Assembly: GCF_001612765.1 (NCBI RefSeq)
Contig: NZ_BDBB01000008.1
Location: forward strand, 124,001-188,000
DNA length: 64,000 nucleotides
DNA from: Nocardia arthritidis NBRC 100137
Lineage (GTDB): Bacteria; Actinomycetota; Actinomycetes; Mycobacteriales; Mycobacteriaceae
Direction of reading: 5' to 3'
Shown in pieces: positions 15,832-22,273 of the stretch (position 1 is its first letter; the number at the start of each line of letters is the position of its first letter). The translations under genes were made by a program, and so were the position numbers. Under the pieces are notes generated by a model that ran no database searches, was not told where the DNA came from, and saw only the letters and a program-made list of their open reading frames with translations.

Positions 15832-15902
15832 GGCAGAAAAATACCCTGTGATGACTGACCGGACACTTACCCGGCATCGCCGCGCGCGGCACCGTGGGAG
15901 GC

Positions 15903-16238
15903 ATGCACCCCGAGATCCTCGCCCAGGAGGGCTACACCTCCGTCTCTGTCACCGAATCACCGGTCCGCGAACTCTTCCCCGGCATCCGGCTACGTCACCT
16001 CTGGAAAGGCCCCTCCGGAGCACAGGCCAACGTGCTGGAGATGGACCCGGGTACCTCGTGGCCGCGCCGCGATGTCCACGAGCCCGGCCCGGAGGAGGTC
16101 TACGTGGTCGCTGGCACGTTCAACGACGGCGCACGCGACTACCCGGCCGGGACCTTTCTGCACGCCCCGGCCGGGTCGTGGCATGTGCCCGCGACCACGA
16201 CCGGCTGCACATTGTTCGTCTTCTACCCGGAAGGGTAG
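15903..16238 (+). CDS. Single-domain cupin protein
   Basis: A 111-residue single cupin barrel. The first motif reads GTSWPRRDVHEPGPEEVYVV, and the second is PAGTFLHAPAGSWHVP; His and Glu in these are the usual metal ligands. It resembles ChrR-type or dioxygenase-like cupins that bind Zn, Fe or Mn, but the substrate cannot be told. ATG at 15903 is used; a GTG at 15894 in frame is nearly as good because GGGAGG lies only 2 nt before the ATG. It is divergent from the GlxA-type regulator and overlaps the end of helR by 16 bp. Confidence 0.75.
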   Translation: MHPEILAQEGYTSVSVTESPVRELFPGIRLRHLWKGPSGAQANVLEMDPGTSWPRRDVHEPGPEEVYVVAGTFNDGARDYPAGTFLHAPAGSWHVPATTTGCTLFVFYPEG

Positions 16239-18448
16239 GAGTGCGAAAGGTCTCCGCTCGGGCGGTTGCGGCCGCCCGCCGCGCCGTATTCGGCGAGTCC
16301 GGTCAGAACCTGCGGCAATGGCCCCTGGTGCAGGACGCCCAGACGCTGGGTGGCGCGGGTGAGGGCGACATAGAGCTCGGCCGCGCCGCGCGGTCCTTCG
16401 GCGAGGATCCGTTCCGGTTCCACGACCAGGACGGCGTCGTATTCCAGGCCTTTGGTCTCCGACGCCGCCACCGCGCCCGGCACATCCGGCGGACCGATCA
16501 CGACGCTGGTACCTTCGCGACCGGCTTCCTCGCGTACGAAATCCGCGATGGCCGTGGCTGATTCGTGCTCGGTGACCCGCCTGGACCACGGCTGGACGCC
16601 GCACGCGCGAACCGACTCCGGTGGTTGCACCCCGGGCGCGAACTCGGCGAGCAGCGCGGCGGCGACGGACATGATCTCGGCCGGGGTGCGGTAGTTCACC
16701 GACAGTGACCGGTAGACCCACCGGCCGGGCACGTACGGCTCGAGCATCGTGTGCCACGAGGTCGCTCCGGCGACCGACCGGCGTTGGGCGAGGTCGCCGA
16801 CCACCGTGAAGGAGCGGCCGGGGCAGCGCCGCATCAGCACTCGCCAGTCCATTTCGGACAGCTCCTGGGCCTCGTCGACCACGACGTGCCGGTAGGTCCA
16901 GTCCCGGTCCGCGGCGGCGCGTTCGGCGAGCTCGCGAGTGTCGCGCTCGAGGAAGCGATCGGCCAGATCGTGCCCGTAGAGCATGTCCTGGGCGAGCAGG
17001 TGGTCCTCGTCGTCCATCAGGTCCTCACGGCTGACGAGGAGGTCCAGCACGCCGGCCGCGTACGCGGCCTCGGCGTGCTGTTCCCGCTCTGCCGCGCGGT
17101 CGTCCGACTTGTCGCGGCCGAGCAGATCGACCAACTCGTCGAGCAGCGGCACATCCGAGACCGTCCAGGCGTCGCCGTCGGCGCGCCACAGCGCCGCGTC
17201 GGCGCCTGCCGCCGCCAAGCGCTCCGGGGACTCGTACAGCCGCGCCAACAGAGTTTCCGGCGTCAGGATCGGCCAGAGTTCGTCGAGTGCGGCGGTGAAC
17301 TGGTCGTTGTCCGCGAGTTCGGCGATGAGGTCGGCGCGCAGGTTCTCCCATGCGTCGCGCTCCTGCCGAGTCAGCCAGCCGCGGCCGATCCGGGCTATCG
17401 CCCGTTCGGTGAGCACCCAGGTGACGATCTCGCGGAACACCGCACGGGCTTCGTTGTGCGGCTGCCCGCTCGCGCGCGCCTCTTGCCTGGCCCACTCCGC
17501 GGTCTCGGCGTCGATGCGCACGGTGACGTCGGTCAGTTCGATCGGCAGCGGCTGCTCCGGCAGCCGCTGCCGATCGGCCACCGCTGCCGCCAGCACGTCC
17601 AGGATCTGCAGCGCGCCTTTGAGCCGGGCGGCCTCCGGGGTGTCCTCGGCGGTGACGCGCAGACCGGGCACCAGGTCGCCGGTGGTCATGAACACGACGT
17701 TCGTCTCACCCAGCGATGGTAGAACGCGGCTGATGTGATCGAGGAACGCCGGGTTGGGGCCGACCACGAGAACACCGTTGCGTTCCATCCGCTCCCGCTG
17801 GGTGTAGAGCAGGTACGCGACTCGGTGCAGCGCCACCACCGTCTTCCCGGTGCCGGGGCCGCCCTCGATCACCAGCACACCGGGGTGGTCGAGCCGGATG
17901 ATCTCGTCCTGCTCGGCCTGGATCGTCGCCACGATGTCGCGCATGCCGGTACCGCGCGGCGCGTTGACCGCCGCGAGCAGCGCCGCGTCGCCTCGCTCGC
18001 CGCCACCGGGGCGGCCGAGCACCTCGTCGGTGAAATCGACCACTCCGCGCCCGCGAGTATGGAACTGGCGGCGTCTGCGCATGTTCTCCGGGCTGGCGGC
18101 GGTGGCGACGTAGAACGCGCGCGCGGCAGGCGCCCGCCAATCGAGCAACAGCGGTTCGTACTCGTTCTCCTCGTCGAAAAGGCCGATCCGGCCGATGTAG
18201 GAGTGTTCGCCCGAGAGGGTGTCCAAGCGGCCGAAACACAGCCCGTTGTCCGCGACGTCCAGCCGCTTCGCCTCCTTGGCCAGCGCGCGCACCTCGACAT
18301 CACGTTCCATCGGCGTCCCGCCGGTTCCCCGCAACGCCGCGGCGTAGCGACCCTTCACTCGCGCGCGCTCGGCATCGAGCCGCGTGTAGAGCCCGGCCAC
18401 GTAGGTGCGCTCGGACCGCAATTCGTCTTCGTACCCCTGAGCCGACAC
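16223..18448 (-). CDS. helR: HelR/HelD-like RNA polymerase recycling ATPase
   Basis: A 741-residue UvrD/Rep-like superfamily 1 protein. An N-terminal coiled-coil arm (YEDELRSERTYVAGLYTRLDAERARV, shown in part as AGLYTRLDAERARV) precedes Walker A in GGPGTGKTVVALHR, motif II-like VVDEAQELSEMDW, and the C-terminal ETKGLEYDAVLVVEP and YVALTRATQRLGVLH. This is the layout of HelD, which opens and clears stalled RNA polymerase, rather than of a DNA helicase. GTG at 18448 is chosen because AGAGGTGGGA precedes it and the coiled coil starts at once. A 19-bp rifamycin-associated element lies 125 bp upstream, which identifies it as the HelR branch that displaces rifamycins from RNA polymerase. Confidence 0.88.
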   Translation of the reverse strand: MSAQGYEDELRSERTYVAGLYTRLDAERARVKGRYAAALRGTGGTPMERDVEVRALAKEAKRLDVADNGLCFGRLDTLSGEHSYIGRIGLFDEENEYEPLLLDWRAPAARAFYVATAASPENMRRRRQFHTRGRGVVDFTDEVLGRPGGGERGDAALLAAVNAPRGTGMRDIVATIQAEQDEIIRLDHPGVLVIEGGPGTGKTVVALHRVAYLLYTQRERMERNGVLVVGPNPAFLDHISRVLPSLGETNVVFMTTGDLVPGLRVTAEDTPEAARLKGALQILDVLAAAVADRQRLPEQPLPIELTDVTVRIDAETAEWARQEARASGQPHNEARAVFREIVTWVLTERAIARIGRGWLTRQERDAWENLRADLIAELADNDQFTAALDELWPILTPETLLARLYESPERLAAAGADAALWRADGDAWTVSDVPLLDELVDLLGRDKSDDRAAEREQHAEAAYAAGVLDLLVSREDLMDDEDHLLAQDMLYGHDLADRFLERDTRELAERAAADRDWTYRHVVVDEAQELSEMDWRVLMRRCPGRSFTVVGDLAQRRSVAGATSWHTMLEPYVPGRWVYRSLSVNYRTPAEIMSVAAALLAEFAPGVQPPESVRACGVQPWSRRVTEHESATAIADFVREEAGREGTSVVIGPPDVPGAVAASETKGLEYDAVLVVEPERILAEGPRGAAELYVALTRATQRLGVLHQGPLPQVLTGLAEYGAAGGRNRPSGDLSHSYPSG

Positions 18449-18572
18449 AGATCCCACCTCTTTCCGGCTCGACGATCCTGCGTAGTTCACGCGGACACTG
18501 CTTTCGTCCCGAATTTCGCTACTCCCATTTCCGCAGGTTCTGGCCACGGCCAGCGATTCTGCGGCATGACCC

Positions 18573-18591
18573 GGGTCTTGCCGCAAGCCCC
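18573..18591 (-). promoter_or_regulatory. Rifamycin-associated element (RAE) upstream of helR
   Basis: On the minus strand the 19 bases read GGGGCTTGCGGCAAGACCC, a near-perfect inverted repeat with a single mispaired position. It agrees with the RAE found upstream of rifamycin-resistance genes (arr, rph, rox, helR) in actinomycetes, as I remember that consensus. The TTGCGG inside it could serve as -35, with CAGAAT 19 bp further on as a weak -10. It should make helR inducible by rifamycins. Confidence 0.8.
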
Positions 18592-18634
18592 CCGGTGCGC
18601 TATAGATTGGGAGTGGAAAGAGGTTGACCGCCTT

Positions 18635-19618
18635 CTACCGGATCAGCTTCTCGCTCTTCAGCCAGTCGTAAGCGACGTCGGCCGGATCCTCACCATCGAT
18701 GTCGACGCGGCCATTGAGGTCCTGCATCAGTTCGTCGGTGAGGTGGTCGGAAATCGTTCCGAGCAGAGTGCGTAACTGCGGATAGCGGTCGATGATCGCG
18801 CCGCGCACGACCGCCGTGCCGCTGTAGGGCAGGAAGAACTTCTCGTCGTCGTCGAGCACGACCAGATCCAGGTTCTTCACCCGGCCGTCGGTGGTGTAGA
18901 TCATGCCGAAATTGCACGGGGCGCTCTTGGCCGTGGCCGTGTAGACGACACCGGCGTCCATCCGTGTGACGTTGCCGGACGGCACACCGTTCGGATCGTT
19001 GTAGGGGATCCCGTACTTCCGCAGCATCGGAATGAAACCGTCCGAGCGGCTGAAGAATTCGTCGTCGACGCAGAACGTCCGATCAGGGACCGGGAGCGCC
19101 GCCACGTCCGACAGCGACCGGACCTTCAGGCGTTCGGCGGTCGGCGCCGACGCGCCGAACGCATAGGTGTCGTTGAACTCGGCCGGCGGCAGCCACTCCA
19201 GGTCGTGGTCGCGCTTCTCGATGTCGTGGACGCGCTGCCAGAGTTCGTTCGGGTCCGAGATCGTCTCGGTCTGGTTGTGGTAGTTGACCCAGCCGGTGCC
19301 GGTGTACTCCCAGAGCACGTCGGCGTCACCGTTGAGCTGGGCCTGCCGAGACGAGGCGGAACCCGGCGCCCCGGTCAGGTCGGTGACCTCCGCGCCCGCC
19401 GCGGCCAGGTAGGTCGCGGTGATCTTGCCCAGTAGCACGCCCTCGGTGAAGCTCTTCGAGGTGACGACCAGCTTTGCCCCGTCCAGCGGCCGCTCACCGT
19501 CCGGCAGACGCGCGTCGTGGAAGGTTCCCGACGAGCTCACCAGGCCGCACCCGGCGAGCATCGCCGCTACGACGAGCGCGGACAGCGCCGTGACCACCCG
19601 TGCTCGTGGCGATCTCAT
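18635..19618 (-). CDS. Glycine betaine/osmoprotectant ABC transporter substrate-binding lipoprotein
   Basis: A 327-residue OpuAC/ProX-type binding protein. The signal peptide ends in the lipobox AMLAGCG, so it is lipid-anchored outside the membrane. The body has the family's VVTSKSFTEGVLLGKI start, DVLWEYTGTGWVNYHN (the aromatic cage region) and the C-terminal DEL..DLNGRVDIDGEDPADVAYDWL. It binds quaternary ammonium osmolytes such as glycine betaine, choline or carnitine. The ATG overlaps the TGA of the permease gene by 4 bp (ATGA), and it is last in the four-gene operon. Confidence 0.92.
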   Translation of the reverse strand: MRSPRARVVTALSALVVAAMLAGCGLVSSSGTFHDARLPDGERPLDGAKLVVTSKSFTEGVLLGKITATYLAAAGAEVTDLTGAPGSASSRQAQLNGDADVLWEYTGTGWVNYHNQTETISDPNELWQRVHDIEKRDHDLEWLPPAEFNDTYAFGASAPTAERLKVRSLSDVAALPVPDRTFCVDDEFFSRSDGFIPMLRKYGIPYNDPNGVPSGNVTRMDAGVVYTATAKSAPCNFGMIYTTDGRVKNLDLVVLDDDEKFFLPYSGTAVVRGAIIDRYPQLRTLLGTISDHLTDELMQDLNGRVDIDGEDPADVAYDWLKSEKLIR

Positions 19619-20352
19619 GAGATACCTCGTGGGGTCGCGGCCAGTTCCACCAATCTGCCGAGCCAGTCGATGAGCAAGGCCAGGAGCCCGACCAGAACCG
19701 CGCCGGAGACGAGCAGTTTCGGCAGGAAGAGGGTGACGCCGGTCGTGATCAGCGTGCCGAGGCTGGTCGCGCCGATGAACGTGCTCAGCGTCGCGGTGCC
19801 GACCAGGATCACCAGCGCGGTGCGCACCCCGTTGAGGATCACCGGCACCGCGAGGGGTAGCTCGACCTGGAACAGGGTCCGCGAAGCCGAATAACCGATG
19901 CCCCGCGACGCCTCGATCGTGCGCTGATCGACCTGCCGAAGCCCGACGATCGTGTTCTGCAGGATCGGCAGCACCGCGTACACGACGAGACCGACGATCG
20001 CCGTGCGGAATCCGGTGCCCAGCCAGAAGGTGAACAAGACGAGCAGGCCGACGGCAGGTGCGGCCTGGCCGACATTGGCGATATTGACGGCGATGGGCTC
20101 GAGCCGTTGAAACGCGGGCCGGGTCAGCGCGATGCCCAGCGGGATCGCGACGACCACCACGATCACCGTGGCCACCACGGTCAGCTTCACGTGCTGAAGG
20201 ATCGTGGTCTGTAGGTTGACCCAACCGAGGGACGCCTTCTCCGTCGGCGTGAACGTCGTCGAGCGATACCAGATGGCGTATCCGACGCCGATGACCAGAA
20301 TGATGATCGGTTCGAACCATACGTCGAGCGGGACGCGGCGCAGGCGGCTCAT
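19615..20352 (-). CDS. Osmoprotectant ABC transporter permease (second)
   Basis: A 245-residue inner-membrane permease of the OpuAB/ProW type with about six transmembrane helices. The EAA loop reads EASRGIGYSASRTLFQVELPLAVP, shown here as EASRGIGYSASRTLF. ATG at 20352 overlaps the ATPase stop by 4 bp, and its own TGA overlaps the binding-protein ATG in the same way, which implies translational coupling. The longer open frame upstream runs inside the ATPase gene and is not coding. Confidence 0.92.
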   Translation of the reverse strand: MSRLRRVPLDVWFEPIIILVIGVGYAIWYRSTTFTPTEKASLGWVNLQTTILQHVKLTVVATVIVVVVAIPLGIALTRPAFQRLEPIAVNIANVGQAAPAVGLLVLFTFWLGTGFRTAIVGLVVYAVLPILQNTIVGLRQVDQRTIEASRGIGYSASRTLFQVELPLAVPVILNGVRTALVILVGTATLSTFIGATSLGTLITTGVTLFLPKLLVSGAVLVGLLALLIDWLGRLVELAATPRGIS

Positions 20353-21632
20353 GACTGCCCGGCCGATCCGGGTTCGTCGTCGGCGGCGACCACCGGGGTC
20401 GGCGCCGGGTCGGTTCCGTCGACGTAGGTCGTGTAGGAGAGGTCCTCCTCGTCGGCGCGCCCTTCGGCGAGTTTGTTCCGGATCACCTCCGTGACCGTGC
20501 CGATGCCAAGCGAGCCGAGGACCGCGCCGCGACCGTCGGTGACGAGCGCGGCGCCCTGGCTGGTGGCGAGCATGGCGTCGAGCGCGTCGTTGAGGGTCGA
20601 GGATCGTGCGACGACGGGCAATCGCCGATCGAGGTAGTCGGAGACCTCCGGTTTGGTCGCCAATTCGTCGAGCGAGGGCCACGACCGCGGCCGTCCGGCC
20701 GAGTCGACGACCACGACCCAGGTCTGTCCGGCGGTCTTCGCGCGCTCGATCACGCTGTGCGCCGGCTCGCCGACGCGCGCGGTGATCACCTCGTCGTAGG
20801 CGACGTCGCGCACCCGCGACACGGTCAGATATGCCAGCTTCGCGCCGGAGCCCACGAACTCCTCCACGAACGGCGTGGCCGGATCGGTGAGGATCTCCTC
20901 GGGGCTCGCGTACTGCTCGACGTGACCCCCCTCGGACAGGATGAGCACCTTGTCGCCGAGCTTGGTTGCCTCCTCGAAGTCGTGGGTGACCAGCACGATG
21001 GTCTTACCGAGTTCGTGCTGGATCGCGATCAGGCTGTCCTGCAGGCGAACCCGGGTGATCGGGTCGACCGCGCCGAACGGCTCGTCCATGAGCAGCACCG
21101 GCGGGTCCGCCGCGAGCGCGCGCGCGACGCCGACCCGCTGCTGTTGCCCGCCGGACATGTCCTTCGGCAGCCGGTCGGCGAAGATGCCCGGGTCGAGACC
21201 GACCAGATCGAGCAGGTACTCGGTGCGTTCGGCGATCCGCTTCTTGTCCCACCCGAGCACCCGCGGGATGGCGCCGACGTTCCTGGCGACCGTCCAATGG
21301 GGGAACAGGCCGCCGGACTGGATCACATACCCGATCGACTGCCGCAGCTTGTCGGGGTCCTCCCTGGTGACGTCGCGGCCGCCGATGAAGATCCGGCCCT
21401 CGGTCGGCTCGATCAGCCGGTTGATCATCTTGAGGGTGGTCGTCTTGCCGCACCCGGACGGGCCGACGAACGCGACGATGTCGCCCGCCTCGATCTCCAG
21501 GTCGAGGCGTTGCACCGCCGGCTTCTGCTGGCCCTTGTAGCGCTTGACGACCGAGTCCAGCTGGATGGACGCACCGGTGACGTTGCGCTCCGGTGCAGGC
21601 GGTACGGGCCGACTGGTCACATCGTCGGTCAT
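20349..21632 (-). CDS. Osmoprotectant ABC transporter ATPase with CBS domains
   Basis: A 427-residue ProV/OpuAA-type ATPase. Walker A is GPSGCGKTT, the signature is MSGGQQQRVGVARAL, Walker B is VLLMDEPFGAVD and the switch histidine is in VLVTHDF. After the nucleotide-binding domain two CBS modules occupy the C-terminal 150 residues (VRDVAYDEVITARVG, then LPVVARSSTLNDALDAML). In OpuA such CBS domains gate transport by ionic strength or cyclic di-AMP. ATG at 21632 overlaps the upstream permease stop by 4 bp. The acidic Pro-rich tail has no known role. Confidence 0.93.
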   Translation of the reverse strand: MTDDVTSRPVPPAPERNVTGASIQLDSVVKRYKGQQKPAVQRLDLEIEAGDIVAFVGPSGCGKTTTLKMINRLIEPTEGRIFIGGRDVTREDPDKLRQSIGYVIQSGGLFPHWTVARNVGAIPRVLGWDKKRIAERTEYLLDLVGLDPGIFADRLPKDMSGGQQQRVGVARALAADPPVLLMDEPFGAVDPITRVRLQDSLIAIQHELGKTIVLVTHDFEEATKLGDKVLILSEGGHVEQYASPEEILTDPATPFVEEFVGSGAKLAYLTVSRVRDVAYDEVITARVGEPAHSVIERAKTAGQTWVVVVDSAGRPRSWPSLDELATKPEVSDYLDRRLPVVARSSTLNDALDAMLATSQGAALVTDGRGAVLGSLGIGTVTEVIRNKLAEGRADEEDLSYTTYVDGTDPAPTPVVAADDEPGSAGQS

Positions 21633-22273
21633 GACAGTCCCTTTGCGATCGTGAGGCGTCCGAGCAGGACGAGGAGCGCGTCGAACACCAGCGCGATGAT
21701 GACGATGAGGATGGTGCCGGTCAGTGCCATCTCCAAGGCGTTCGCGCCACCGAGGCGGGAAAGGCCGTTGAAGATCAGCGATCCGAGGCCGGGTCCGAGG
21801 ACATAGGCGACGATGGCGGCGACACCCACGATCATCTGGGTGGACACCCTGATGCCGGTGAGGATCACCGGCCAGGCGATCGGCAATTCGACGGTCAGCA
21901 GAATGCGCCATCGCGAAAAGCCGATCCCGCGCGCGGATTCGACGACCGAGGCGGGCACCGACCGCAAACCCACGATCGCGTTGCCGATCACCGGCAGCGC
22001 CGCGAAGAACGCGAGCATCACGAAGGACGGGACCACGCCCAGTCCGAACGGGACCAGCAGGATCGCCAGCAGTGCCAGCGACGGGATCGTCAGCGCCACC
22101 CGGCTGGAGGTCAGCGAAAGCGCGGACAACAGCGGGAGCCGATATACGGCCACCGCGACGAGGACGGCGACGACCGTTCCGACCAAGACCGTCTGGAACG
22201 CCAGGGAGGCATGCTGATACGTGAGGAACGCAAGAACTTCGCCCCGCCCTCGGATGTAGTTCCAAAAATTCAC
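21629..22273 (-). CDS. Osmoprotectant ABC transporter permease (first gene of operon)
   Basis: A 214-residue permease with about six membrane helices and an EAA loop (ESARGIGFSRWRILLTVELP). It pairs with the second permease to form the transport channel of a glycine-betaine-type importer. GTG at 22273 has GGGA 6 nt upstream. It heads the operon permease-ATPase-permease-binding protein, all joined by 4-bp overlaps. The promoter must lie in the 480-bp gap upstream, but I do not see a convincing -10/-35 pair. Confidence 0.9.
   Translation of the reverse strand: MNFWNYIRGRGEVLAFLTYQHASLAFQTVLVGTVVAVLVAVAVYRLPLLSALSLTSSRVALTIPSLALLAILLVPFGLGVVPSFVMLAFFAALPVIGNAIVGLRSVPASVVESARGIGFSRWRILLTVELPIAWPVILTGIRVSTQMIVGVAAIVAYVLGPGLGSLIFNGLSRLGGANALEMALTGTILIVIIALVFDALLVLLGRLTIAKGLS

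Follow-up and report, generated by a model that had tools for sequence, protein, structure and literature searches.

Among described rifamycin defences, the closest counterparts of the locus considered here are the helR/helD genes of mycobacteria and of N. farcinica. In Mycobacterium abscessus, rifampicin resistance needs the tip of the PCh loop of HelR (E484 and D485 in M. smegmatis numbering), and induction requires the rifamycin-associated element (RAE), a 19-bp palindrome found upstream of the gene (PMC10719064). In M. smegmatis, the -35 element of promoter P2 overlaps the RAE (PMC10719064). Both a 2022 review and a paper of January 2026 treat rifamycin sensing via the RAE in actinobacteria as an unsolved question. 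We describe below a conserved module around the RAE of a Nocardia helR gene which provides both bases to mutate and a transcript to look for, and hence makes the sensing question directly testable. The DNA analysed (the window) is a stretch of 64,000 nucleotides from Nocardia arthritidis NBRC 100137, whose relevant features are collected in Table 1.

Table 1. Features of the helR locus, in window coordinates (strand: +, forward; -, reverse;., none assigned).
Feature	Position	Strand	Remarks
helR, class II HelD/HelR, 741 aa	16223..18448	-	GTG start at 18446-18448; protein and profile matches
Codons of PCh-loop tip, E481-D482	17003..17008	-	Equivalent to M. smegmatis E484-D485, by alignment
Inverted repeat CTGGCCACGGCCAG	18540..18553	.	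Just after sense -10, near predicted sense start
Sense -10-like element, CAGAAT	18556..18561	-	11 bp from RAE; CAnnnT conserved there
Degenerate third RAE half-site, GGGTCATGCCGCA	18560..18572	-	Abuts RAE on gene side, overlaps sense -10
RAE, 19-bp palindrome	18573..18591	.	+ strand GGGTCTTGCCGCAAGCCCC; gene (-) strand GGGGCTTGCGGCAAGACCC
Antisense -35-like element, TTGCCG	18578..18583	+	Inside RAE; 19-bp spacer; mirrors sense element
Sense -35-like element, TTGCGG	18581..18586	-	Inside RAE; 19-bp spacer; published P2 -35 overlaps RAE (PMC10719064)
Antisense -10-like element, TAGATT	18603..18608	+	11 bp from other RAE edge; TAnnnT conserved there
Predicted antisense start, GG (+1/+2)	18615..18616	+	GG conserved; 7-bp stems peak at +1

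The helR gene, its RAE and other rifamycin defences

Gene family, key residues, RAE and module anatomy can all be read directly from the DNA. The original prediction assigned a HelD/HelR layout to the gene behind the 19-mer, and family scores, PCh-loop tip and motifs bear this out. The product is similar over its full length to actinobacterial HelD (M. smegmatis HelD 6yxu_H: 1230 bits, 77.1% identity, aligned from residue 1) and exceeds the curated cut-offs of both NCBIfam HelD_MYCSM (1520.7, cutoff 1051) and NCBIfam motor_HelR_2 (1410.3, cutoff 1100), which places it in class II HelD/HelR. It contains the motifs DWRAP (103), GGPGTGKT (Walker A, 196) and DEAQ (525), the E-D tip of the PCh loop is present as E481 and D482, and the RNAP-contacting Q490 of the M. 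smegmatis protein is matched by Q487. Of the named organisms matched in the helR search, Nocardia gamkensis comes closest (96%). TTG at 18586, where the longest open reading frame begins, is unlikely as the helR start, with GTG at 18448 fitting the start of M. smegmatis HelD residue by residue. In itself, helR is a typical and well-made representative of a resistance factor that is already known, and by analogy with the work on M. abscessus and S. venezuelae (PMC10719064) it would be expected to be induced by rifamycins and to protect against them in this strain.

Two neighbours frame the gene. A ChrR-type cupin gene (15894-16238, + strand) converges on the end of helR (16223, - strand), with a 3' overlap of 16 bp, and upstream, on the same strand as helR, lies an ABC uptake operon (18635-22273, - strand) that looks like an osmoprotectant (Opu/ProU) system. 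A distance of 186 bp separates the last stop codon of this operon from the helR start, and the antisense RNA predicted below overlaps the operon.

The 19-mer agrees with the pattern GGGNCTTGCSGCAAGNCCC at every position. Its identification as an RAE, judged here against the palindrome described in PMC10719064 and 157 gathered sites, stands: a gene for rifamycin resistance is preceded by a palindrome of 19 bp, and the same element recurs before rox, arr, rgt, rph and helR. Its position and orientation before the gene are likewise as originally described, and a second genomic RAE at rox adds further agreement. A search of the window allowing up to three mismatches gave two matches against 0.44 expected in shuffles, the RAE being the sole perfect one and the other carrying three mismatches, while the 7.12 Mb genome holds exactly two perfect RAEs, at helR and at rox (C54:4063-4081). 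A candidate third genomic RAE, on contig C46, has two mismatches and lies inside an ABC-F coding sequence, and was set aside as a chance match. Across the phylum, the exact pattern was found in 41 among 396 genomes, with one match for the reversed control pattern, and Nocardia relatives usually carry one to five copies per genome (one mismatch allowed).

The rox gene behind the second RAE encodes a rifampin monooxygenase (NF033145 (rif_monoox) equivalog, 848 bits, cutoff 800), and a search of the 7.12 Mb assembly for arr found none. A second rpoB is known from many Nocardia. Two distinct rpoB N-termini lie at contig ends of the assembly (G000:C24:1-213 and G000:C32:62722-62931), which suggests a duplicate rpoB lost in assembly, and the rifampicin regions of the strain's own rpoB genes were not found in it. 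Relatives have a second rpoB whose rifampicin region is altered; one of them (G002) has two full rpoB genes, the rifampicin region being the usual DQNNPLSGLTHKRRLS in one and DERNPLASLTNKRRLS in the other. The two N-termini and the two genes of G002 make a second rpoB probable here also, and helR would then be one of several protections. Since rox and the probable second rpoB may influence susceptibility too, the effect of deleting helR alone could be small.

Mirror-image elements around the RAE

Around the RAE, the upstream regions of helR relatives can be aligned for about 60 bp rather than just 19. We collected 197 distinct RAE sites, selected by an RAE with at most one mismatch and not by their flanks, and reduced them to 163 by limiting flanks to at most 80% identity; 157 of these were oriented solely by downstream protein similarity (helR 80, rox 45, rgt 18, arr 7, rph 7). 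On the gene side, 151 of the 157 sites (96.2%) have CAnnnT at a distance of exactly 11 bp from the RAE and none has TAnnnT there; on the other side, read on the opposite strand, TAnnnT occurs at exactly that distance in 153 (97.5%) and CAnnnT in none. At other offsets within 40 bp neither hexamer exceeds 8%, and the five gene families share the offset-11 pattern. Sigma flips out A(-11) and T(-7), and these two bases are conserved at 97-100% on either side of the RAE. Resemblance to a -35 element is limited to TTG, the spacer is long (19 bp), and plain sigma-70 and terminator scans of 18400-18750 returned neither a promoter nor a terminator. A TATA upstream of the RAE was considered as a gene-side promoter and rejected, its position 6 being C in 97% of helR sites; read on the opposite strand it becomes TAnnTT, with T in 96-97%. 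Because CAnnnT and TAnnnT flank it at exactly 11 bp, the RAE appears to serve two divergent promoters, mirror images of each other, as a common -35/operator core. Searched genome-wide with up to three mismatches, the composite ANNNTA-N11-RAE-N11-CANNNT recovers the helR and rox sites alone, both with no mismatch in the gene-side orientation and with no control matches. As a genome query for the rifamycin response it discriminates better than the 19-mer by itself.

Further features accompany the core. The degenerate third half-site forms an inverted repeat with the second half of the RAE, and in each of the five gene families it agrees with GGGNCTTGCSGCA at 8.3-9.1 of 12 positions, against 4.5-6.3 elsewhere. 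Its end lies in the opening bases of the gene-side -10, and the invariant C at -12 may therefore be there for a DNA-binding protein, to keep the promoter weak, or for both reasons. The inverted repeat CTGGCCACGGCCAG is partly conserved in relatives. On the opposite strand, the predicted +1/+2 GG is conserved in 94/91% of the 157 sites, and a 7-bp stem begins at +1 in 38% of sites, compared to 7% in controls. The frequency of such stems peaks exactly at +1, they end near +26, their sequences vary, and the sequence beyond them is T-rich and A-poor. This pattern points to a short, self-terminating opposite-strand RNA at many RAE sites; at the helR locus of N. arthritidis the antisense stem is not perfectly paired in the stretch shared with the end of the upstream gene.

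The module also bears on loci where helR appears to lack an RAE. Among 80 helR loci, 49 have an RAE of their own, 13 have a module-oriented RAE further upstream, and 18 have no such RAE within the flank examined. At most of the 13, rgt lies between RAE and helR, and in one case a monooxygenase gene does, so that a helR without its own RAE may be the second gene of an RAE operon. The RAE of N. brasiliensis has been reported missing (PMC8655204); at the locus of this species (L077) rgt lies between RAE and helR, the gap being 29 bp, and this RAE-rgt-helR arrangement may explain the report. An RAE-driven glycosyltransferase (rgt) gene is interposed in this manner at L077, L013, L018, L019, L022, L026 and L037. 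Elsewhere, complete modules with one RAE mismatch precede alpha/beta hydrolase genes in two Nocardia genomes (L176:3022-4005 in G017; L191:1997-2995 in G011). The products are most like macrolide esterases (NF052610, 180-190 bits, below the cut-off of 420), and the two genes are candidates for new rifamycin-response genes. Another locus of G017 (L177, G017:C1:95163-102745) carries two RAEs 1.6 kb apart, one facing helR and the other, whose opposite-strand hexamer is shifted by one base, facing no recognised gene start.

A possible switch between two promoters

The explanation that, overall, we think best and fairly probable is that helR is controlled by the RAE within a bidirectional module, where a rifamycin-responsive factor blocks the gene-side promoter. 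At rest, helR would be weakly transcribed. The RAE would form the centre of two divergent, mirror-image and mutually exclusive promoters, the gene-side one kept weak by the C at -12 and the opposite-strand one better, its short transcript often terminating by itself. A putative dimeric DNA-binding factor, directly or indirectly responsive to rifamycins, would occupy the RAE palindrome together with the third half-site, and from the latter, which overlaps the gene-side -10, it would block the gene-side promoter, while the opposite-strand promoter would serve as the default landing site for RNA polymerase. Entry of a rifamycin into the cell would tip the balance towards the gene side and increase transcription from the promoter with its -35 in the RAE; HelR would then bind RNA polymerase, its PCh loop would displace the drug, and the enzyme would be released from stalled promoters. 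In this scheme we infer promoter activity, direction of regulation, factor identity, induction and protection. We know of no RAE-binding protein, and no linked regulator was recognised among the downstream products of grouped RAE sites. Deleting half the RAE of M. abscessus abolishes induction (PMC10719064), which would not be the simplest outcome for a pure repressor, but the deletion also takes out the -35. A bolder proposal, advanced tentatively and with less expectation that it will hold, is that the RAE lies at the heart of a bidirectional promoter switch found throughout the phylum, in which the gene side is crippled by the invariant C at -12 and an opposite-strand, self-terminating RNA of about 30 nt holds polymerase until rifamycin alters promoter choice; if this holds, it would add a new architecture to those known for antibiotic sensing.

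The main competing explanation is that RNA polymerase could itself be the sensor without a dedicated factor, overlapping promoters competing for it and the rifampicin-bound enzyme shifting their usage. The strict two-promoter anatomy, with an opposite-strand promoter that is closer to consensus and often self-terminating, suggests that the act of initiation matters, and helD and pps of Bacillus subtilis do run on promoter interference without a regulator (PMC12802891). Yet the RAE promoters are divergent and overlapping rather than convergent, and induction was abolished when the B. subtilis promoters were moved to the distance at which polymerases clash (PMC12802891). Moreover, stalling of polymerase on the opposite strand would block the gene side too, and the GGG...CCC of the RAE is unnecessary for sigma contacts, all of which leads us to regard a polymerase sensor as unlikely. 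The near-invariance of the palindrome across the 157 sites would also suit an activator that recruits polymerase both ways, leaving the opposite-strand promoter as a by-product of symmetry, and symmetric sites often give bidirectional promoters. Such an activator would fit the need of the RAE for induction (PMC10719064), but we give it a small chance: a by-product would not stay at 97% with a -10 better than that of the useful promoter, nor keep a +1 GG or a stem anchored at +1, and activators seldom bind with their centre at about -33, where that of the RAE lies.

If transcription began at the upstream P1 of M. smegmatis, the palindrome could fold in the transcript, and the RAE might then act as an RNA hairpin in the leader, by attenuation or as a riboswitch. 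This is highly improbable: RAE positions 4 and 16 show no pairing, being complementary in 18.5% of the 157 sites (16.1% expected, p 0.18) and mostly G-G or G-A; P1, besides, is lineage-specific, and the predicted start on the gene side is downstream of the RAE. A riboswitch or attenuator was accordingly rejected, for want of compensatory stem changes. HelD also recycles stalled polymerase when no drug is present (PMC8655204), and N. arthritidis has rox and probably two rpoB genes, so the gene could be a housekeeping recycling factor for RNA polymerase with an RAE inactive in this strain; the full composite module, free of mismatches, and the intact PCh tip make this very doubtful.

Relation to described systems

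The helR/helD genes of M. smegmatis (MSMEG_2174), M. abscessus (MAB_3189c) and N. farcinica (NFA_44160) (PMC10719064, PMC8655204) have in common with the locus of N. arthritidis the protein family and the PCh-loop tip, as also an upstream RAE on the same strand and a sense promoter with its -35 in the RAE. The gene-side element here agrees with M. smegmatis P2. P1 of that species corresponds to a TACCCT that precedes the RAE by 27-32 bp in the close relative L215; it is not conserved in Nocardia and was rejected for that reason as part of the general module. The RAE-controlled inactivation genes rox, arr, rph and rgt share the same 53-bp composite and differ in their products, which are drug-modifying enzymes. 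The mirror opposite-strand element, present in Nocardia and in helR/helD loci of the M. smegmatis type alike, is undescribed in the open literature, where only sense promoters are described at the RAE, and we provisionally regard it as new. The helD/pps alarm of B. subtilis (PMC12802891) likewise places a gene-side promoter and a stronger opposite-strand promoter before rifampicin-protection genes. Its promoters, however, converge, their starts are separated by 39 bp and an RAE is absent, whereas those of Nocardia are divergent and overlap on the RAE palindrome. An alarm of the B. subtilis type, with two convergent promoters about 39 bp apart, is thus not what the Nocardia locus contains: its two -10 elements are directed outwards from the RAE.
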